64,000 nt of DNA, taken from Chitinophagaceae bacterium (lineage in GTDB: Bacteria > Bacteroidota > Bacteroidia > Chitinophagales > Chitinophagaceae). Positions 48,476 through 61,824 of the stretch are shown here, one piece after another. Both the position numbers and the translations under genes were made by a program. Position 1 is the stretch's first letter, and every line of letters begins with the position of its first letter. Under the pieces are notes generated by a model. It was not told the origin of the DNA. It did not search any database and was given only the letters and a program-made list of their open reading frames with translations. Location of the stretch: positions 1 through 64,000 of the forward strand of contig JAIEMK010000053.1 of the NCBI GenBank assembly GCA_019752295.1, written 5' to 3'.

Positions 48476-48961
48476 CTAATCTTTATCTCCTTCTTCACCT
48501 CCGATGTTATTTTGTGGAGCCGTATTTGAAATTTCAGTGTGTCTTATCTGACCACCAAGCCAGCCTGTTCTGGCAACCAGCCCAAAACTGATGAGCGAAA
48601 GAACAAGTGTGAGTGTAGCGGTAAAACGCATCAACGAATTTTTAAACTTTGTTTCCGCCAAAGCAAATACCGATACCAATCCCAATATGATCAGACTTAT
48701 CAAAGCATACATCGCGGCGTTTTCATGGAGCTTAATGATACTCTCAGAAACACCCTGAATATTTTCGGTTGCTTCTTCTGCGGCTTCACCTGTTAAATAA
48801 GCAATGGCTGCACCGATTGCCGAAATAATAAACATTAAATAAGCCGCTTGTTTTGTTTGGGTACTTTTAGCCCAAAGCCCATAAACCAATACCAACGTTC
48901 CTAACAGAGACCCGAAAATCGGAAGGTGCGTGATTAATAAATGCAAATGTACCTGACTCAT
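48476..48961 (-). CDS. Four-helix membrane protein, DUF2231-like
   Basis: The product has 161 residues with four hydrophobic helices. Histidines cluster at the helix ends: HLHLLITHLPIFG at the N-terminus and KLHENAAM at the third helix. The C-terminal signature RTGWLGGQIRH is shared with the protein at 51974. Paired intramembrane histidines suggest b-type heme or a quinone site, but this is inference. It is the last gene of a minus-strand block behind the rubrerythrin lipoprotein, 11 nt away. Confidence 0.7.
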   Translation of the reverse strand: MSQVHLHLLITHLPIFGSLLGTLVLVYGLWAKSTQTKQAAYLMFIISAIGAAIAYLTGEAAEEATENIQGVSESIIKLHENAAMYALISLIILGLVSVFALAETKFKNSLMRFTATLTLVLSLISFGLVARTGWLGGQIRHTEISNTAPQNNIGGEEGDKD

Positions 48962-48972
48962 ATTTGTAATTT

Positions 48973-49758
48973 TTAAAGTGAAGTAATTTTAAGAAATTTT
49001 TCTCCGCCTGTCATTGAAATGCCACAACGTGCAGGGGCTTTTGTTTCATAGGTATTACCACAAGTAGGGCATACATAAAATACAGTAGGAAGTTTTTTTA
49101 CGGTATTGTTTTGTAAAGCGGCCAGTGCTGCCTCATAAAACAGCTTGTGTTTTTTTTCGGTTTTATAAGCATAGTTTAAACTAATCAGGGCTAACTGATT
49201 ACCTGCTTCATTTGCTACGGTTAAAAATCCGGGGTACATAGTTGTTACCTCATAAGTTTCCCCTGCAATGGCATCCTCCAGATTTTCTTTGGTTGTTTTA
49301 ACCGTAAATTCTGGTTTAATTGTAGGCACCACAATACCTGATTCCTGTAATACTGCCTTATGATTATTGGCATGAACATTTTCTGCAACGGAAGCTGCCT
49401 TAAAAAGTAAAGCAATTTCGTGCTGTCCTTCCTGTTCAGCCTTTTTTGAATAGGCTGCATATTTTGCACTGGCAGTTGTTTCGCCTTTAAAAGCTGCCTG
49501 CATATTCTCGGTTGTTTTTGAATTGGCATCTGTTCCGCTGGCTTTTCCGGCAGGCTTTACACTTGATTCCTTTTCTTCTTTCTCATTTTCTTTTGTTTCG
49601 TCCTCGCCGCTTTCTTTGATTGTTTTTTGTGTGGCAGAATCAGCATTGTTTTGCACGGGCGACTTCATCGCATTGTTGTTATTGGCATTACCGCAGGAAG
49701 TAAGAAATATACTGCCTGTTGTTAATAAAAGTGCCGGGATAATTAGTAATTTTTTCAT
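48973..49758 (-). CDS. Rubrerythrin-like lipoprotein with a low-complexity acidic linker
   Basis: The product has 261 residues from the ATG at 49758, which puts a lipobox (IFLTSC) at the expected distance; the frame extends 17 codons upstream. After the Cys comes a charged linker rich in E, K and S (about 30-80), then a rubrerythrin di-iron four-helix domain (KGETTASAKYAAYSKKAEQE, AENVHANNHKAVL). The C-terminus has a rubredoxin-like knuckle VCPTCGNTY followed by APARCGIS; the fourth Cys of the iron site is replaced by Ser. It should reduce peroxide at the envelope. It is sited between the DUF2231-like gene and a two-component system. Confidence 0.85.
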   Translation of the reverse strand: MKKLLIIPALLLTTGSIFLTSCGNANNNNAMKSPVQNNADSATQKTIKESGEDETKENEKEEKESSVKPAGKASGTDANSKTTENMQAAFKGETTASAKYAAYSKKAEQEGQHEIALLFKAASVAENVHANNHKAVLQESGIVVPTIKPEFTVKTTKENLEDAIAGETYEVTTMYPGFLTVANEAGNQLALISLNYAYKTEKKHKLFYEAALAALQNNTVKKLPTVFYVCPTCGNTYETKAPARCGISMTGGEKFLKITSL

Positions 49759-49853
49759 TTGATAATCTTTTATTGTTTTCGAAAATCGATAACACAAAAT
49801 TGCAAGCACGCGCCTTCAGTGTTGCTTTGTGAATCCTTAAGATTTGCTAAAGA

Positions 49854-51221
49854 TTAGGAAGGGAATTTTAAAGAAAACGTAGTGCTGTTATCGGCCCCTG
49901 TAACTGCAATATCAATATGCTGCAGGTCGGCTAATTTTTTTACAATGGCAAGCCCCAAACCAGTTCCGGGAACCAGCGAGCTTCTTGAATCATCCGTGCG
50001 ATAAAACCTGTTAAACAATAGCGGCATTTGCTCTTGCGAAATACCGGGGCCATCATTTGTTATAGTAAATATTTTAGAAGAATCATTCCAGCGGCAACTT
50101 ATATTTCCGTTTAACTCACCGTACTTAACTGCATTGCTGAAAAGATTATCAATAACTACAGATAAGTAAAAATAATCAGCATTTACGGTACTGGTTTCTG
50201 CAATATCGCATGCAACATGCATTGACTTTCCTGCAATTTGTTTTTTGAATTTGAGTTCCGATTCCAAAACTAATTTAATCAAATTAATTTTTTCTTGTTT
50301 TACTGTTCCCGATTCAAGGCGAGCAAGCTGCAACAGTTGTTCAAGTAATTGATTCAACCTGTCGGTTTGAAATACCACTTCTTTTATTTTCTCTTCATAC
50401 ACGTCTGGCTCTCTTTTTTTACGCAGTAAAATCTCGAGTGTACCCCTGATGGCAGCAAGTGGTGTTCTTATTTCATGTGAAGCATCGGCTGTAAATTGTT
50501 TTTGTTGTTGTATGCTGGTTTCAATTCTGGCTAGCAATTCATTGATTGTTTTAGCAAGTTGATACAACTCGTCTTCGTTTTCCGGCAGGGGCAGGCGTGT
50601 ATTGATATTAGAATCGTTAATGCCGGAAGCTGTTTTGATTAATTGCTGAACAGGCGCGATTGCTCTGGAAGCAGTCAGGTAAATAACAATATAGAGCACT
50701 AATAACAGTATCGGAAAAGAAATGCAAAGCGTAACAAGCAAATTATTCAACACATTGTGCGACTCCTGTTGAGAAATGCCCACCGTTAGTTGTCCGATAA
50801 TTTTACCCTGATCGTTTTTAATTGGAAACTGACCCAGTCGGAGTTGTTTTTTTTCCACCACTGCATTATAAAACTTCTCATACACAATTTGTGGATCAAA
50901 TAAAAAATGGTTGGACTGCAAGTTGGCAGATTTAAATACCATTCTATCCTTACTATTCACGATTTGTATAAATGTAGGATTTACTTCAACTTTCTTGTGT
51001 TCTGCTTCTTCCCATTCTGGCAGTTTATTAATGATGATGCTATCTTGTTTCCAATCGAGTGTGTTTAAAATTTCTTCTTTTTCCATCAAAATATCATTAT
51101 CGAGATGGCGAAACGAAGTATAATAAACAACGCCATATATTACTACAAATACGATCGCTGTAGTAATAGCAACAGCAATGGTATTAAATAGCGCAATGCG
51201 TTTTTTAAAACTCAGTTTCAT
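49854..51221 (-). CDS. Two-component sensor histidine kinase (CusS/BaeS-like)
   Basis: The product has 455 residues. Two transmembrane helices (about 11-34 and 160-183) bracket a periplasmic sensor of about 125 residues. HAMP follows (about 184-236), then HisKA with His249 in DASHEIRTPLAAIRG and HATPase with ITNDGPGIS and GTGLGLAIVKKL. The architecture matches kinases for metal or envelope stress. Its partner regulator starts upstream and its stop lies 43 nt before this start, so they are co-transcribed. A shortened copy of the dispersed element occupies the gap. Confidence 0.93.
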   Translation of the reverse strand: MKLSFKKRIALFNTIAVAITTAIVFVVIYGVVYYTSFRHLDNDILMEKEEILNTLDWKQDSIIINKLPEWEEAEHKKVEVNPTFIQIVNSKDRMVFKSANLQSNHFLFDPQIVYEKFYNAVVEKKQLRLGQFPIKNDQGKIIGQLTVGISQQESHNVLNNLLVTLCISFPILLLVLYIVIYLTASRAIAPVQQLIKTASGINDSNINTRLPLPENEDELYQLAKTINELLARIETSIQQQKQFTADASHEIRTPLAAIRGTLEILLRKKREPDVYEEKIKEVVFQTDRLNQLLEQLLQLARLESGTVKQEKINLIKLVLESELKFKKQIAGKSMHVACDIAETSTVNADYFYLSVVIDNLFSNAVKYGELNGNISCRWNDSSKIFTITNDGPGISQEQMPLLFNRFYRTDDSRSSLVPGTGLGLAIVKKLADLQHIDIAVTGADNSTTFSLKFPS

Positions 51222-51262
51222 CTATTTCTAATTGTTTTGGCCACACAACTCGCATATGCTCA
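51222..51262 (-). repeat. Shortened copy F of the dispersed element
   Basis: On the minus strand AAAATGAGCATA and GGCCAAAACAATTAGAAATA flank a short centre, and the element ends at the ATG of the sensor kinase. It matches both ends of copy A but lacks the middle. The alignment is short, so this is less certain than copies A-D. Confidence 0.45.
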
Positions 51263-51264
51263 TT

Positions 51265-51942
51265 TTATTCGTATTCATTTACCCGGTATCCAACACCTCT
51301 GATGGTTTGAATAAACGACGCTGCCCCCGGAGCATCTAATTTCTTACGGAGGGCATTAATGAATACGTCAATTACGGAAGTATCTTTTTCAAAATGAATG
51401 TCCCATATTTTTTCTATTATCCTTGATCTTCTGCATACTTTTCCTTTATTCCGAAGCAGGTATTCAAGCAGTGCAAATTCTTTTTGGGTTAGTTCTACTG
51501 TTATTCCATTTTTTGTTACCTGGTGTATTTCTGTATTCAGAATAATATCTCCGGCCACAAAAATATTTTGCTCTCCGTCTTTATTTCTCAGGAGTACTTT
51601 TATACGAGCAAGCAGTTCTTCAAATGCAAAGGGTTTTTTCAAGTAATCGTTTGCCCCCGCTTCCAGACCAAATACAGTGTCATCCACTGTGTCTTTTGCC
51701 GTTAGAAATATGATTGGGATACTTGTATTTTCTTTACGAATGAGTCTGCAAATTTCAATACCACTTACGCCGGGCATCATCCAGTCAAGTAGAATAATAT
51801 CATATTCGCCAAGATTATCGAGAGCCATTTTAAGTGCCTCTCTGCCATTGGTAGCAACGTCTACAGCAAAACCTTCCTCTTCCAGGCCTTCTTTTAAAAA
51901 GCCCGCAATCGCCGATTCGTCTTCCGCTAAAAAAACTCTCAT
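51265..51942 (-). CDS. OmpR/PhoB-family response regulator
   Basis: The product has 225 residues. A receiver domain (1-120; acidic E7/D8, phosphoacceptor Asp53 in IILLDWMMPG, Thr in IIFLTAKD, Lys in YLKKPF) is joined to a winged-helix DNA-binding domain (about 130-224; VELTQKEFALLEYLLRNKGK, SVIDVFINALRKKLD, IRGVGYRV). It is the cognate partner of the sensor at 49854 and probably controls the flanking rubrerythrin and DUF2231-like genes. Confidence 0.95.
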   Translation of the reverse strand: MRVFLAEDESAIAGFLKEGLEEEGFAVDVATNGREALKMALDNLGEYDIILLDWMMPGVSGIEICRLIRKENTSIPIIFLTAKDTVDDTVFGLEAGANDYLKKPFAFEELLARIKVLLRNKDGEQNIFVAGDIILNTEIHQVTKNGITVELTQKEFALLEYLLRNKGKVCRRSRIIEKIWDIHFEKDTSVIDVFINALRKKLDAPGAASFIQTIRGVGYRVNEYE

Positions 51943-51973
51943 GTTGTTAAGTTAAGAAATAAAGGCTTTGTAT

Positions 51974-52441
51974 TTACTTCCCATTGGGATTTGAGAAATC
52001 GGGCAATGCCAGTTCCACACCGGCACCATGTTTATAAACTAATTGCCCACCCAAATACCCGGTTCTCGCTATGCTGATAATTACAGTTGTAAAAAGCAGC
52101 AAACTGATCATTCTTAGCCAGCCCTTGTTAAATTTAAAATAGTAAGCAGCAGCGTATAGCAATGCAGTAAATATGGTTAACCATAACGAAATTGTAGCTG
52201 CCACTTCATGCAGTTCCATCGCTTTTTTCAATGCGCCTTCCTCCATTCCCGCTCCGGCGGCGTTGCCCGCAAAATAGGAAACTATGGTTCCGAGCGTTCC
52301 CAGCACCAGCAAGTATAAAGCGGATTGGCTAAGGAATGGTTTTTTATAAAAAAAACTAACAAGCTCAAACAAGAACCCAACCATTAATAAGGCTATCGGA
52401 AAGTGAACTAGCATTGCGTGCAGATGTGTGGCCGAGATCAT
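51974..52441 (-). CDS. Four-helix membrane protein, DUF2231-like (paralogue of 48476)
   Basis: The product has 155 residues with four hydrophobic helices. It repeats the pattern of the 48476 protein: HLHAMLVHFPIALLM, ELHEVAATISLW and ARTGYLGGQLVYKHG. The two paralogues bracket the rubrerythrin lipoprotein and the two-component pair, which points to a common redox function at the membrane. It is the first gene of this minus-strand block, 31 nt before the regulator gene. Confidence 0.7.
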   Translation of the reverse strand: MISATHLHAMLVHFPIALLMVGFLFELVSFFYKKPFLSQSALYLLVLGTLGTIVSYFAGNAAGAGMEEGALKKAMELHEVAATISLWLTIFTALLYAAAYYFKFNKGWLRMISLLLFTTVIISIARTGYLGGQLVYKHGAGVELALPDFSNPNGK

Positions 52442-53684: not shown

Positions 53685-53748
53685 AGCTTTATATTGCGTT
53701 GAAATAAACTATTTGCAGAAAGTTCTACCCACCAAAAAACAAATCACA

Positions 53749-54741
53749 ATGAACTATCCATCATTGCTTTTAGTTGGGACTTTCTTATTTTTTTCTTGCA
53801 CTAAAAATGAAAGTGTAAATAGTGCGAACACAACTGATTATAGACAGAAAATGAGAGATTTTGTTATTGGAATCAGTAAATATTCAAAATCAATTAACCC
53901 TAGTTTTAATATCGTACCACAAAACGGGATTGAATTAGTTAGCAGCAATGGAGATTCAACAGGATTGCCCAATTCCGAATATCTGCATGCGATTGATGCC
54001 ACTGGGCAAGAAGATTTATTTTACGGGTATATTCAGGATGATCAGGCAACCACTACAGATATCAACAATACCATAAAAGCGTTTTTAAATATAGCTAAGA
54101 CTGCCGGAAAAAAAATACTGGTAACAGATTACTGCTCTACAAATTCAAACATGAGCAACTCTTATCTCGAAAATAATCATGCGGGTTTTGTTTCATTTGC
54201 AGCAAATAAGAGAGAGTTGACTAATATTCCGGACTTTCCACTACCCATTTATAGCGAAAACAATACTGTTGTGGGTTCTCTGACGCAGGTGAAGAATTTT
54301 TTGTACTTAATAAATCCATCGAGTTTTTCAAGCAAAGCCGATTTTATAAACGCAGTAACTGCAACTAACTATGATTTACTAATTACTGACTTGTTTTTTA
54401 ATGGTCAGGTAGAATTTACTGCAGCAGAAATAAATCAATTAAGAAACAAAGCTAATGGTGGAAAAAGGTTAGTGATTTCGTATATGTCGATCGGCGAGGC
54501 AGAAAACTATCGGTATTATTGGCAATCGGGCTGGGGTACCAATAATCCTGTGTGGTTAGACAAAGAAAATCCTGACTGGCCAGGAAACTTTAAAGTAAAA
54601 TATTGGTATCCTGAGTGGCAAAGCATCCTATATGGCAATGACAATTCGTATCTAAAAAAGATTCTAAACGCAGGGTTTGACGGCGTTTATTTAGATATTA
54701 TCGATGGCTTTAAATTTTATGAGCATGAAAACGGAGGTTAG
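53749..54741 (+). CDS. GH114/TM1410-like lipoprotein with circularly permuted barrel order
   Basis: The product has 330 residues from the ATG at 53749, giving a lipobox (LFFSC). The blocks of the MJ1477/TM1410 glycoside-hydrolase family are all present but reordered. Residues 30-165 hold what is normally the C-terminal half (SFNIVPQNGIEL, ATGQEDLFYGY, ILVTDYC), and residues 195-330 hold the normal N-terminal half (LLITDLFFNG, SYMSIGEAENYRYYW, DGVYLDIIDGFKF). The chain ends where the second half would normally begin. Family relatives include endo-alpha-1,4-polygalactosaminidases; the substrate here is unknown. Its stop overlaps the ModE-like gene by 17 nt, so they are translationally coupled. 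Confidence 0.8.
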   Translation: MNYPSLLLVGTFLFFSCTKNESVNSANTTDYRQKMRDFVIGISKYSKSINPSFNIVPQNGIELVSSNGDSTGLPNSEYLHAIDATGQEDLFYGYIQDDQATTTDINNTIKAFLNIAKTAGKKILVTDYCSTNSNMSNSYLENNHAGFVSFAANKRELTNIPDFPLPIYSENNTVVGSLTQVKNFLYLINPSSFSSKADFINAVTATNYDLLITDLFFNGQVEFTAAEINQLRNKANGGKRLVISYMSIGEAENYRYYWQSGWGTNNPVWLDKENPDWPGNFKVKYWYPEWQSILYGNDNSYLKKILNAGFDGVYLDIIDGFKFYEHENGG

Positions 54742-55078
54742 TAAAGTTTTACAAATCGTACAAGGTAGTATTTGGCTTGAAAAAAGTGGGGTTAAATATT
54801 TTGGACCTGGTCCATATGAATTATTAGAAAAAATTGAAGTTACAGGATCGATAAGTGAAGCTGCGAAACAAATGAAACTCTCTTATAAAAAAGCTTGGGT
54901 AATTATTAATCGATTAAATGAAGTAGAAGGAATTCCAATTGTAGCTACTCAAACAGGGGGGGCAAAAGGGGGGGGATCTTTTATAACCGATGAAGCTAAG
55001 CTCTTGATGAAAAAATACGCTTCAATTCGCGAAAAATTTAAAGAATTCCTTCAAAATCAAACAAATTTAATCAACTAA
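54725..55078 (+). CDS. Single-domain ModE-like molybdate-responsive regulator
   Basis: The product has 117 residues from the ATG at 54725. The ModE-type winged helix is clear: YELLEKIEVTGSISEAAKQM, LSYKKAWVIINRLNE and the glycine-rich wing QTGGAKGGGSFITDEAKLL. The molybdate-binding MOP domains of full-length ModE are absent, so oxyanion sensing must come from elsewhere or be direct in an unknown way. The Gly-rich wing is coded by runs of seven and eight G residues (54956-54962, 54968-54975). It lies 75 bp before a TonB receptor gene preceded by a ModE-type operator. The start of the longer frame at 54704 adds seven residues and is less likely. Confidence 0.87.
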   Translation: MKTEVSKVLQIVQGSIWLEKSGVKYFGPGPYELLEKIEVTGSISEAAKQMKLSYKKAWVIINRLNEVEGIPIVATQTGGAKGGGSFITDEAKLLMKKYASIREKFKEFLQNQTNLIN

Positions 55079-55111
55079 GGAATATTAGTTTTTAAGATCA
55101 ATGGCTTACAT

Positions 55112-55149
55112 TTACTTTCGTTATGTCTTTAAATACATAACGTAAGTAA
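55112..55149. promoter_or_regulatory. ModE-type operator in front of the TonB receptor
   Basis: The inverted repeat TTACTTTCGTTATGT and ACATAACGTAAGTAA (one mismatch) is separated by 8 nt and ends 4 nt before the ATG at 55154. Its core CGTTATGT-N8-ACATAACG has the arm sequence and spacing of the E. coli modA operator as I remember it. Placement over the start region fits repression by the ModE-like protein encoded just upstream. Confidence 0.75.
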
Positions 55150-55153
55150 TACA

Positions 55154-57721
55154 ATGAAAGCCTCCACTCTATTAATATTCTTTTGTTCCCTAATTGTTTC
55201 TACGATTGGTAGTACCCAGATTCCCTTCAGAAAAAATTCTGTAGATACAACTTTACCACAAATAAGAATACTAGATGAAGTAATTGTTACCGCATCCAAG
55301 ACAAAAGAGAAGTTATTGAAATCTCCTATTAGCATTCAGAAACTAGGAGACACTTATTTTAAAAGTAGTTCAGCACCAAGTTTTTTTGATGCATTAGAAA
55401 ATGTACAAGGTATTCAAATGATAACTCCAAGCCTCGGATTTAAAGTGATTAATGCAAGAGGATTCGCAAATACTACCAACGTACGTTTCTCGCAATTAGT
55501 AGATGGAATGGACGTGCAATCACCTCATATTGGGGGGCCAATTGGCAATTCTTTAGGACCCACTGATTTAGACATAAAAGATGTTGAGATAATACCAGGT
55601 GTAGCATCAGCATTGTATGGCATGAATACGATAAATGGATTAGCAAATTTTAAAACAAAAAATCCATTTGATTATGAAGGTTTGAGTTTAGCGCAAAAAA
55701 CTGGAATAACGCATATAGGAGATTCAAATTCAAGTGCTAGATTATTCACTGAAACCAGTCTTAGGTATGCCAAAAAAATGAGCTCAAGATTTGCATTTAA
55801 ATTGAATTTTAGTTTTAATAAAGGGTATGATTGGATTGCAGATAACAGAACAGAATTAAATCCAAATGCAAATTCCAGCACCAATCTATTCGGTTACAAT
55901 AACCCAGCACAGGATCCAGTAAATGTTTATGGAAATGAATCGTCTAATAGAAAAACAATAACCTTAATGGGTAAATCTTATGTTGTTGCAAGAACAGGTT
56001 ATGCAGAAAAAGATGTTACGAATTATAATTTACAAAATAGTAAGGGAGATATTGCACTTTATTATAAATTTAAGAATCAAAGCTCACTAACTTACACCTA
56101 TCATTTTGCATTACTGAATAGCGTTTATCAAAGATCAAATAGATTTAGTTTACAAAATTATTTGGTACAACAACATGGCCTTGAATTTCAATCTAATTGG
56201 ATTTCCTTTAAATTATATACCAATAGCGAAAATACTGGAAGCTCATACAATTTGAGATCAATGGCTGAAAATTTAGATCGAAGTTATAAATCAGATAACT
56301 CATGGTATAAAGATTATGGTAATGCTTTCAATGCCGCCATCGCAAATGGTTCTAATGTAGCATCATCACATCAACTTGCAAGAACCGCTGCTGATGCCGG
56401 TAGGTATTTACCTGATAACCCATCTTTTACAAGTGAATTAGAGAAATTACAGAATATTAATAATTGGGACTCAGGGGCTGCTTTAAGAGTAGTTGCAAGA
56501 TTTATTCATTCAGAAGCTCAATTTGATTTAGTCGAAAAATTATTTCATAGCCTTAAAGAAAAAGGAACGAATTTATATATTGGTCTTGATAGCAGAACTT
56601 ATATCATAAAACCCGATGGCAACTATTTTATTAATCCGATTGTTGGTAAAACAAATGAAAATATTTATTCCAGTAAAACTGGCGGATATATTTCTTATAA
56701 TCAATCTGTTTTATCTAACAAATTAAGAATTGGATCCACTTTAAGAATTGATAAAACTGATTATTTCGACGCAACTGTAAGTCCAAGAATTACTTTGGTC
56801 TATTCTACAAATCAAAATACAAGTTTTCGATTCGCATATCAAGAAGGATTTAGGTACCCTAGTATTTTTGAAGCCTATTCAAACATCAATAGTGGGGGTG
56901 TAAAAAGAGTTGGAGGATTACCTATAATGTCGAGCGGTGTTTTTGAGAATGCTTGGCTAGCAAATTCAATTAGCTCATTTCAATCGTCCGTTTTAAGCGA
57001 CATTAATAAAAATGGACTTTCAAAAAATGATGCCATACTTAAAGAAAAATATTTACTTCAGAAAAGTCCTTACACTTACATCAAACCAGAAAATATAAGA
57101 TCTCTCGAAACTGGGTTTAGAGGTTCCATTTTAAGAGATAAGCTTTATATTGATGCCGACTTTTATTATAATATTTATCACAATTTTATTGCTCAAACAA
57201 ATGAGAATGTTCCATTAACTGCTATAGCTGATTCTATCCCATTTGCTTTATACGACAAAACGCTTCAACGCCAGTACAGAGTATGGACCAACTCAAAATC
57301 AACAGTTTATAATTATGGCACCTCATTTGGTCTAACATACATTAGTGAAAATGGAATAAGAACCAATGCGAATACCACCTATTCAAAATTGCAGAAGTCG
57401 GTTAATGAAGATGGATTAGAAGATGGTTTTAACACTCCTTCATGGATGGTTAATTTAAGCTTTTCAAAACAACATATATATAAGACGCTTGGAGGTGGAA
57501 TTGGTTATAAATGGCAAAGTGCATACTACTTACAATCTTTTCTTGTAAATGGCAATGTACCTGCTTATGGAACAATTGATGGAAATCTGAATTATCAAAT
57601 ACCCAAAACAAAATGGTCTTTAAAGTTGAGTGCAACAAATCTTCTTAACAAATATTATTACTCATTTCTCGGAGGGCCAAGTATTGGAGGCATGTATTAT
57701 TTATCAATCTTGTACTTATAG
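55154..57721 (+). CDS. TonB-dependent receptor under a ModE-type operator
   Basis: The product has 855 residues. A signal peptide ends near STIGSTQ. A TonB-box-like segment (LDEVIVTASK) precedes the plug, which includes LENVQGIQMITPSLGFK, INARGFANTTNVRFSQLVDG and VEIIPGVASALYGMNTING. The barrel follows and ends GGMYYLSILYL. It has no carboxypeptidase-like domain and no SusD partner, so it resembles siderophore/cofactor-type receptors rather than SusC. The operator and adjacent ModE-like gene suggest uptake of molybdate, tungstate or a metallophore complex; this is inference. The gene is noticeably more AT-rich than the core genes. Confidence 0.88.
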   Translation: MKASTLLIFFCSLIVSTIGSTQIPFRKNSVDTTLPQIRILDEVIVTASKTKEKLLKSPISIQKLGDTYFKSSSAPSFFDALENVQGIQMITPSLGFKVINARGFANTTNVRFSQLVDGMDVQSPHIGGPIGNSLGPTDLDIKDVEIIPGVASALYGMNTINGLANFKTKNPFDYEGLSLAQKTGITHIGDSNSSARLFTETSLRYAKKMSSRFAFKLNFSFNKGYDWIADNRTELNPNANSSTNLFGYNNPAQDPVNVYGNESSNRKTITLMGKSYVVARTGYAEKDVTNYNLQNSKGDIALYYKFKNQSSLTYTYHFALLNSVYQRSNRFSLQNYLVQQHGLEFQSNWISFKLYTNSENTGSSYNLRSMAENLDRSYKSDNSWYKDYGNAFNAAIANGSNVASSHQLARTAADAGRYLPDNPSFTSELEKLQNINNWDSGAALRVVARFIHSEAQFDLVEKLFHSLKEKGTNLYIGLDSRTYIIKPDGNYFINPIVGKTNENIYSSKTGGYISYNQSVLSNKLRIGSTLRIDKTDYFDATVSPRITLVYSTNQNTSFRFAYQEGFRYPSIFEAYSNINSGGVKRVGGLPIMSSGVFENAWLANSISSFQSSVLSDINKNGLSKNDAILKEKYLLQKSPYTYIKPENIRSLETGFRGSILRDKLYIDADFYYNIYHNFIAQTNENVPLTAIADSIPFALYDKTLQRQYRVWTNSKSTVYNYGTSFGLTYISENGIRTNANTTYSKLQKSVNEDGLEDGFNTPSWMVNLSFSKQHIYKTLGGGIGYKWQSAYYLQSFLVNGNVPAYGTIDGNLNYQIPKTKWSLKLSATNLLNKYYYSFLGGPSIGGMYYLSILYL

Positions 57722-61307: not shown

Positions 61308-61730
61308 TCATTCAGAGATCTCCATTAAAAATTCTCTAGGCGTATAAACAGGTAATAAAGGAATACATTGTTTTTGCAATTGTTTGTCACGCGATATGAA
61401 GTAATCTAGTTTATGATGCACAGCAGTATAGTATTGCAGCGCATCTTCAATATCATTTATTTTTGAATGAAGGGCATTCAACACAATTTCATGAGGTAGA
61501 TCAATTACGGTTACATCTGCCATTAGGGTTAACAACAACTCTTTTGCTTTTGCATTACCATATGCCTTTGTTAACCAGTAGCCAACAATATGTACAATGG
61601 AAGCTGTGATAAAAGCCTGAATAGTTCCGTTTACGGCCAATGCAATAATTTGTTTCGACTGCTCATACTCCTCGCACTTTAAAGTGAAGTCGAGCAATAT
61701 ATTGGCATCTAGAAATACTTTAGAAGCCAT
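61308..61730 (-). CDS. PIN-domain ribonuclease toxin (VapC-like)
   Basis: The product has 140 residues from the ATG at 61730. PIN acidic residues are visible: Asp8 in MASKVFLDANILLDF, Glu95/Asp96 in NDIEDALQYY and Asp115 in YFISRDKQLQ. This is the PIN_3 type common in Bacteroidota, expected to cut RNA. A longer start at 61742 is possible, but 61730 overlaps the short upstream frame by 11 nt (ATATGGCTTCTAA), the usual coupling in toxin-antitoxin pairs. Confidence 0.88.
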   Translation of the reverse strand: MASKVFLDANILLDFTLKCEEYEQSKQIIALAVNGTIQAFITASIVHIVGYWLTKAYGNAKAKELLLTLMADVTVIDLPHEIVLNALHSKINDIEDALQYYTAVHHKLDYFISRDKQLQKQCIPLLPVYTPREFLMEISE

Positions 61731-61824
61731 ATTTTTTTGCATTTTCTTGATAGTACAAATCTTTTAAATCGTCGCCCTTACCGATAACAGGTTTTTTCAA
61801 TTTCTCTGATTCAAGTATACGCAT
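61720..61824 (-). CDS. Tiny partner of the PIN toxin (candidate antitoxin)
   Basis: An ATG at 61824 opens a 34-codon frame MRILESEKLKKPVIGKGDDL continuing to YYQENAKKYGF and a TAA that overlaps the PIN start by 11 nt. The C-terminal Lys/Tyr-rich tail and the coupled overlap fit an antitoxin, but it lacks a DNA-binding domain and is shorter than known VapB/PIN_3 partners. An in-frame stop lies four codons upstream, so it is not a longer gene. It may be a remnant. Confidence 0.5.
   Translation of the reverse strand: MRILESEKLKKPVIGKGDDLKDLYYQENAKKYGF

Follow-up and report, generated by a model that had tools for sequence, protein, structure and literature searches.

A 38-nt inverted repeat lies between the gene of a short ModE-like regulator and the gene of a TonB-dependent receptor (TBDR) in the 64,000-nt stretch of Chitinophagaceae DNA analysed here, which we call the window. 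The question raised by this locus is whether the repeat is an operator through which a ModE-type regulator governs an outer-membrane receptor, and what such a receptor would import. Our answer, which we hold with a probability of roughly 70% on comparative sequence evidence, is that a ModE-type regulator, probably a repressor, would control the TonB-dependent uptake of a molybdenum (Mo) or tungsten (W) species. The elements of the locus are as follows.

54719 to 55078, plus strand: gene of the single-domain ModE-like regulator, 119 aa; winged helix-turn-helix, no MOP/TOBE domain; a second in-frame ATG stands at 54725.
55107 to 55114, plus strand: candidate -7 element TACATTTA, weak, read from the sequence against the consensus TAnnTTTG; it overlaps the 5' edge of the repeat.
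55112 to 55149, no strand: 38-nt inverted repeat, the proposed operator; pairing 17/19, kept at orthologous loci.
55119 to 55142, no strand: core box CGTTATGTCTTTAAATACATAACG (CGTTAT-N12-ATAACG); geometry of the E. coli modA operator, single exact copy in the genome.
55154 to 57721, plus strand: TBDR gene, 855 aa, proposed importer of a Mo (or W) species; Plug and TonB_dep_Rec domains, with orthologues in operons for the molybdenum cofactor (Moco).

This arrangement was first described in an earlier reading made from the letters alone (the sequence-only reading), and profile matches of both proteins confirmed it: the repeat stands between the genes of a single-domain ModE-like protein and a TBDR, with 4 nt separating its end from the receptor's start codon (ATG, 55154), as claimed. 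Both the plug (PF07715, E 2e-11) and the barrel (TonB_dep_Rec, PF00593, E 2e-19) of the receptor score over their cut-offs, which assigns the protein to the TBDRs. The regulator carries the N-terminal winged helix-turn-helix of the ModE family, matches PDB entries 2ijl (E 9e-26) and 1b9m (E 1e-17) in profile searches, and shares 35% identity with E. coli ModE over 94 residues (BLASTP E 1e-10). Against ModE_repress TIGR00637 it scores E 8e-22 and 77 bits, short of the curated cut-off of 98.5. The sequence-only reading was also right that the molybdate-binding MOP domains are missing, since a profile search of the protein found no tandem C-terminal MOP domains; because neither the protein nor the genome gives a TOBE/MOP match, we call it ModE-like and not a full-length ModE. 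The MOP-less form is not particular to the window, as the matches in the 23 matching genomes of the window's class in the phylum sample, host included, lie in short frames (~113-150 aa). In family f18 of that sample, ModE matches lie mostly in frames of ~270-350 aa, as in full-length ModE. Within the host's own family, 27 of the 294 genomes sampled have the regulator.

The symmetry of the repeat is the first argument for its function. Seventeen of 19 base pairs match, no other stretch of the window reaches at least 16 of 19, and 17-pair repeats arose in 0/60 Markov-simulated windows. We compared its core, CGTTATGT-N8-ACATAACG at 55119-55142, with the retrieved modA operator of E. coli K-12 MG1655, CGTTATATTGTCGCCTACATAACG. 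The sequence-only reading had claimed the same arms and spacing for both; the spacing (CGTTAT-N12-ATAACG) is indeed the same and the right arm identical, and the left arm departs from the claim, with CGTTATGT in the window against CGTTATAT in E. coli (1/8 positions, or one of the 16 arm bases). The exact CGTTAT-N12-ATAACG occurs once in the 3.70-Mb host genome, between regulator and TBDR, where ~0.4 copies are expected from base composition; one-mismatch sites number 8, below the ~14 that composition predicts. When the spacing is loosened to 8-16, the reversed control outnumbers the pattern in nearly all of 47 genomes, and the pattern also turns up in genomes without the regulator. Bare motif matches therefore mean little, and the case rests on position, symmetry and conservation. 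It also follows from these counts that the receptor is the apparent sole target, as had been proposed, as far as exact sites in the host genome are concerned; in relatives the proposal does not stand, because the same box fronts further genes there.

To assess conservation, we scanned the best 80 of 574 loci with a ModE-like gene in named genomes, 81 with the window. These come mainly from Chitinophagaceae and Cytophagales relatives, with Mucilaginibacter, Leeuwenhoekiella and four records labelled as non-Bacteroidota metagenome-assembled genomes; some lie on the same contigs as genomes of the family sample, and the two sets are not independent. The box was sought between -30 and +300 from the modE stop codon, and 79 of the 81 loci entered the spacing test, the two with <300 nt behind the stop being left out. 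An exact box with a spacing of 12 was found in 29/79 loci, against 0/79 for every one of the twelve alternative spacings tried (6-11 and 13-18). Tolerating a single mismatch raised the count to 39/79 at spacing 12 and to one locus, at spacing 18, for all the others together; with two mismatches allowed it was 44/79, against 0-2 at eleven other spacings. The control stretches, -800 to -360 and +1000 to +1330 from the stop, held no box (<=1 mismatch, spacings 10-14).

Long inverted repeats near start codons can form hairpins, and the repeat might accordingly be a terminator, an mRNA hairpin or a product of chance, unrelated to the regulator. We regard this as very improbable, because the spacing recurs at orthologous loci despite variable flanks, the exact box never appears at the other spacings tested, and the box also stands away from modE, before TBDR and Mo-enzyme genes; as a terminator the repeat was rejected, no terminator-like site having been detected there. 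Absence of the box from orthologous loci, which the sequence-only reading had named as a refuting condition, was checked, and the outcome favoured that reading: the box was found both behind modE and before TBDR orthologues. On the comparative sequence evidence the repeat is very probably an operator, because a spacing-specific box recurs at orthologous loci.

The same geometry is seen where the letters differ. In family f5 (probably Flavobacteriaceae), which belongs to the same class, four of the 15 short-form loci (L239, L240, L251 and L256) have the order leuS, regulator, TBDR, the leuS of L239 being confirmed with Pfam. These four have no CGTTAT box; the same gap holds the palindrome TCAGTAT-N12-ATACTGA with the same spacing, which three of the loci match exactly and the fourth with a single change. 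Among the other 11 f5 loci, a TBDR comes next behind a CGTTAT-type box (<=1 mismatch) in L234-L237, and no CGTTAT-type box was seen in L230, L232, L233 and L242. A site that varies with its regulator at constant geometry behaves as expected of an operator.

The receptor gives a second view of the box. As TBDR orthologues we took the best 26 of 205 matching genomes, all above 1200 bits; the set stops there because the scores that follow, which drop to 1108, belong to proteins of greater length. A box (<=1 mismatch, within 500 nt upstream) precedes the orthologue in 12/14 genomes with the regulator, nine times exactly and three times with one mismatch, and in 0/12 without it (Fisher 9.5e-6, this and the other Fisher values being guides only, because the compared sequences are related). 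Seven of the 14 regulator genomes were search seeds, picked for the proximity of receptor to regulator; with the seeds removed, the box is found in 5/7 against 0/12 (Fisher 0.002). Receptor and regulator are separated in six genomes, and the box is kept at four of these receptors (G071, G077, G150 and G288), so that boxed receptors distant from the regulator offset the effect of seed selection. On the TBDR tree the corresponding label was gained or lost at least four times, which means that the association of box and regulator does not belong to one clade or a single inheritance event, related as the sequences still are.

What stands behind the box in relatives is mostly an outer-membrane protein. 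As the next gene at the 39 box-bearing loci we counted the window-type TBDR 15 times, a small outer-membrane barrel 12 times and a second TBDR family (T2) four times, so that these three families account for 31/39; TSUP permeases follow in three loci, CCP or Oxidored_molyb proteins in four and none of these families in one. Two loci (L169, L193) were moved from T2 to TBDR by whole-gene comparison, and it was in this very set of loci that the barrel and T2 families had come to notice. The small barrel (~200 aa; L136:10419-11018 and 11 further named loci) had no Pfam match in the two members tested and is predicted to be a beta-barrel (pLDDT, the predicted local distance difference test score, 78) that resembles OmpX, NspA and OmpA with modest scores. 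In L092, whose regulator was found as L023, the barrel and then a TSUP gene follow a one-mismatch box. T2 genes share operons, preceded by the box, with genes for a MauG-type di-haem peroxidase and for a small Oxidored_molyb protein (L085:3440-7125 and relatives).

The link to molybdenum, an inference in the sequence-only reading, gained support from both gene content and operon context. With moaA presence scored over its curated cut-off and counted by hand from the listing, moaA was found in 26/27 genomes with the regulator and in 108/267 without it (Fisher 5e-9), and in 25/26 genomes with a TBDR orthologue. In 7/12 regulator-free genomes it is the immediate upstream neighbour of the TBDR gene, in the same orientation. 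The order moaA-TBDR-moeA-TSUP-moeB-moaE-moaC is found in L211, L212, L214, L216 and L217, moaA, the regulator gene, the box and the TBDR follow one another in L028, L031, L032 and L033, and several Chitinophaga loci read CoxS-CoxL-XdhC-MocA-MoaA-modE-TBDR with the box behind modE. In L086 and L087 a CoxS/CoxL molybdoenzyme operon follows the box, and a divergent gene lies on the other side of it. Representatives of MoaA, MoaC, CoxL, XdhC, TSUP, CCP, Oxidored_molyb and T2 were confirmed with Pfam, as were MoeA, MoaE, MoeB (ThiF family), MocA (MobA-like transferase), CoxS, NasC and the ABC genes of L044; MoaD and MobA were assigned by visual inspection, and genes at the other loci were labelled by BLAST against the confirmed seeds. 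As in a ModE regulon, the operator thus stands before Mo-uptake or Mo-enzyme genes in relatives; in the host the exact box stands only at the TBDR. The molybdenum link of the regulator-receptor system is, by these sequence comparisons, well supported, and a box before the receptor together with relatives' receptors among Moco genes suggests an unrecognised Mo import route.

Such a route would need a partner in the inner membrane. The host genome uses molybdenum: a CoxL-type hydroxylase (PF20256) is encoded in its Moco operon, and a NasC-like molybdopterin enzyme (PF00384, E 3e-65) in a cluster that resembles those for nitrate assimilation. In its assembly (98.5% complete, 91 contigs), ModA was unmatched by TIGR01256 and SBP_bac_11 (PF13531), the models for ModB, ModC and WtpABC/TupABC not being separately searched. 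The single over-cut-off PF12849 (PBP_like_2) protein of the host, which sits between hisS-like and TPR-like open reading frames (ORFs) as read by eye, was rejected as a transporter part, as there is no permease ORF of at least 150 aa beside it in 3.7 kb. The Moco operon itself supplies the following candidate.

L209:7926-8708, contig C3: TauE/SafE-type permease (TSUP) in the host Moco operon; PF01925, E 2e-34.

The permease is our inner-membrane candidate because the host is without ModA and its Moco operon encodes a TSUP. In relatives TSUP genes come straight after the box (L199, L201), next to regulator and TBDR (L193, L186, L190) or after the regulator (L093); in L044, where ModABC is inside the Moco operon, no TSUP was found in the stretch examined. 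From these few examples it looks as if ModABC and TSUP replace one another as the inner-membrane pump. ModA scores over cut-off in 6/27 genomes with the regulator, and two of the remaining 21 have a weak match.

Taken together, these elements suggest a simple mechanism. The MOP-less ModE-like regulator would bind the palindrome and hold the receptor gene off when Mo is sufficient; in Mo shortage the TBDR would be made and would draw a Mo species (molybdate, tungstate or a chelate) through the outer membrane; and the inner-membrane step in the host would most likely be taken by the TauE/SafE permease of the Moco operon. Repression at sufficient Mo is also how E. coli ModE acts. The box itself is informative about direction, since its asymmetric centre reads TAnnTTT towards the downstream gene in 23/43 aligned boxes and TAnnTTTG in 10/43, and the G at the key position occurs in 13/43 boxes against 0/43 for the mirror image. 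According to the available part of a study in Flavobacterium psychrophilum (PMC9723704), TAnnTTTG is the sigma-A -7 element of that species and the consensus in Bacteroidota. A protein on the -7 element would block RNA polymerase, which makes repression the likely direction of control; the candidate -7 match is weaker in the window.

Several observations weigh against this reading, beyond the relatedness of the compared sequences. Behind modE the box (<=1 mismatch) is missing in 40/79 loci, 7 of which have it elsewhere within 3 kb and 33 of which, including several Larkinella and Spirosoma, do not; and spacing 18 reaches 10/79 as well once two mismatches are tolerated. Two genomes with the regulator (G162, G286) have a TBDR orthologue without a box, and G199 has regulator, box and TBDR, yet no moaA over cut-off. 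In the host, the stretches examined at the Moco operon and the nitrate-reductase cluster held no box with up to two mismatches. Molybdate, moreover, usually passes outer membranes via porins, so that active import needs a reason.

The receptor's structure adds to this side of the balance. Its model is of moderate quality (pLDDT 69) with a poor plug, its closest matches among solved structures are receptors for siderophores and B12, and the cargo is not readable from sequence; given the moderate model and these nearest folds, we inferred no cargo from structure. The receptor might belong to the ModE regulon and carry something else that users of molybdoenzymes require, namely a ferric siderophore or haem for iron-sulphur (Fe-S) and haem subunits, or an organic substrate of the CoxL-type hydroxylases. 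The closeness of the predicted barrel to Cir, FepA/PfeA and BtuB in the structure comparison points in this direction, as do sub-threshold family matches of the receptor to haem receptors, the Fe-S clusters in MoaA and the hydroxylases, and the T2 TBDRs, whose operons also encode a di-haem peroxidase and an Oxidored_molyb protein. We nevertheless find such a cargo quite unlikely, because the window-type TBDR accompanies general cofactor operons (moaA, moeA, moeB, moaE, moaC) in several genomes and stays with moaA when the regulator is gone (7/12 genomes), and because ModE-type regulators answer to molybdate or tungstate, as is established for E. coli ModE.

A further point against Mo control concerns sensing. 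The whole host genome gave no TOBE/MOP match in a search that matched 12/14 control genomes, so a separate TOBE/MOP sensor protein, which we had considered as a candidate, was dropped. The palindrome could thus be the regulator's site while the MOP-less branch senses the free cofactor, an intermediate, tungstate only or the redox state. This would agree with the lack of a TOBE/MOP match and with single-domain ModE proteins elsewhere, whose sensing is not established in the available part of PMC545781; it fits less well with targets that resemble those of the classical ModE regulon, namely uptake-like genes and genes of Mo enzymes. We consider it possible, if on the doubtful side, and it is compatible with the account of the receptor as a Mo (or W) importer.

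The surroundings of the locus bear on its origin. The window TBDR clusters with two Cytophagales sequences on the TBDR tree and the regulator is present in 0/4 other genomes of the host genus, which together suggest that the regulator-receptor pair was acquired horizontally. A GH114-like ORF (53713-54741) overlaps the start of the regulator gene and matches only positions 17-120 of the 231 in its profile; it may have been truncated where the pair was inserted. Farther away, at 48476-52441, two DUF2231 membrane proteins flank a rubrerythrin-domain protein, and two ORFs in that interval resemble a two-component system as judged by eye. A PIN-domain protein (PIN_3, E 9e-15) at 61308-61742 is possibly part of a toxin-antitoxin pair.

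In a wider sense, many Bacteroidota may use a ModABC-free, two-membrane Mo route, in which a TBDR (or, in certain lineages, a small barrel) and a TSUP operate under a MOP-less ModE-like regulator that reads an ancestral operator; we would put this generalization at an even bet. The available part of Peng et al. 2018 (PMC6147048) counts 278 of 3683 bacteria that use Mo and have no known Mo transporter, and notes that further Mo uptake systems may exist. If true, the TBDR-TSUP route would account for some of these bacteria. Candidates for both membranes are now named and testable; of the genomes with the regulator, 26/27 have moaA and 21/27 have no ModA over its cut-off. A Mo-linked TonB receptor would, if true, be a new class of TBDR cargo and would explain ModE-type operators before outer-membrane genes in the phylum; it also raises the question of metal sensing by a ModE-type regulator that has no MOP domains. 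In the open-access literature, the coverage of which is incomplete, neither a TonB receptor under ModE control nor a TSUP linked to Mo came to our notice.

Among known systems, OprC (copper), ZnuD (zinc) and BtuB (cobalamin) share the receptor fold and are among the 50 nearest solved structures listed, at 9-14% identity; we know of none of them that carries Mo or is ModE-controlled. The TauE/SafE family is named for sulfite export, and the host permease is a member whose proposed Mo role is deduced from its position only. For the regulator family, the closest solved sequence is PDB 2ijl, a 'molybdenum-binding transcriptional repressor' that is likewise short (135 aa). The single-domain ModE of Desulfovibrio, in the available part of PMC545781, has the same makeup of a DNA-binding domain only, has Mo genes as targets and raises the same question of sensing; its box, CGGTCACG-N14-CGTGACCG, stands before molybdate transport genes, whereas here an E. 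coli-type box stands before TBDRs. With the E. coli ModE-modABC regulon the system shares a homologous DNA-binding domain, the operator geometry and the proposed control of Mo-uptake and Mo-enzyme genes; it differs in that the regulator has no MOP domains, the commonest targets are outer-membrane receptors or barrels and the host is without ModA. Single-domain ModE proteins and the ModE-type operator are thus already on record, and what appears to be new here is a ModE-type box before a TonB receptor.

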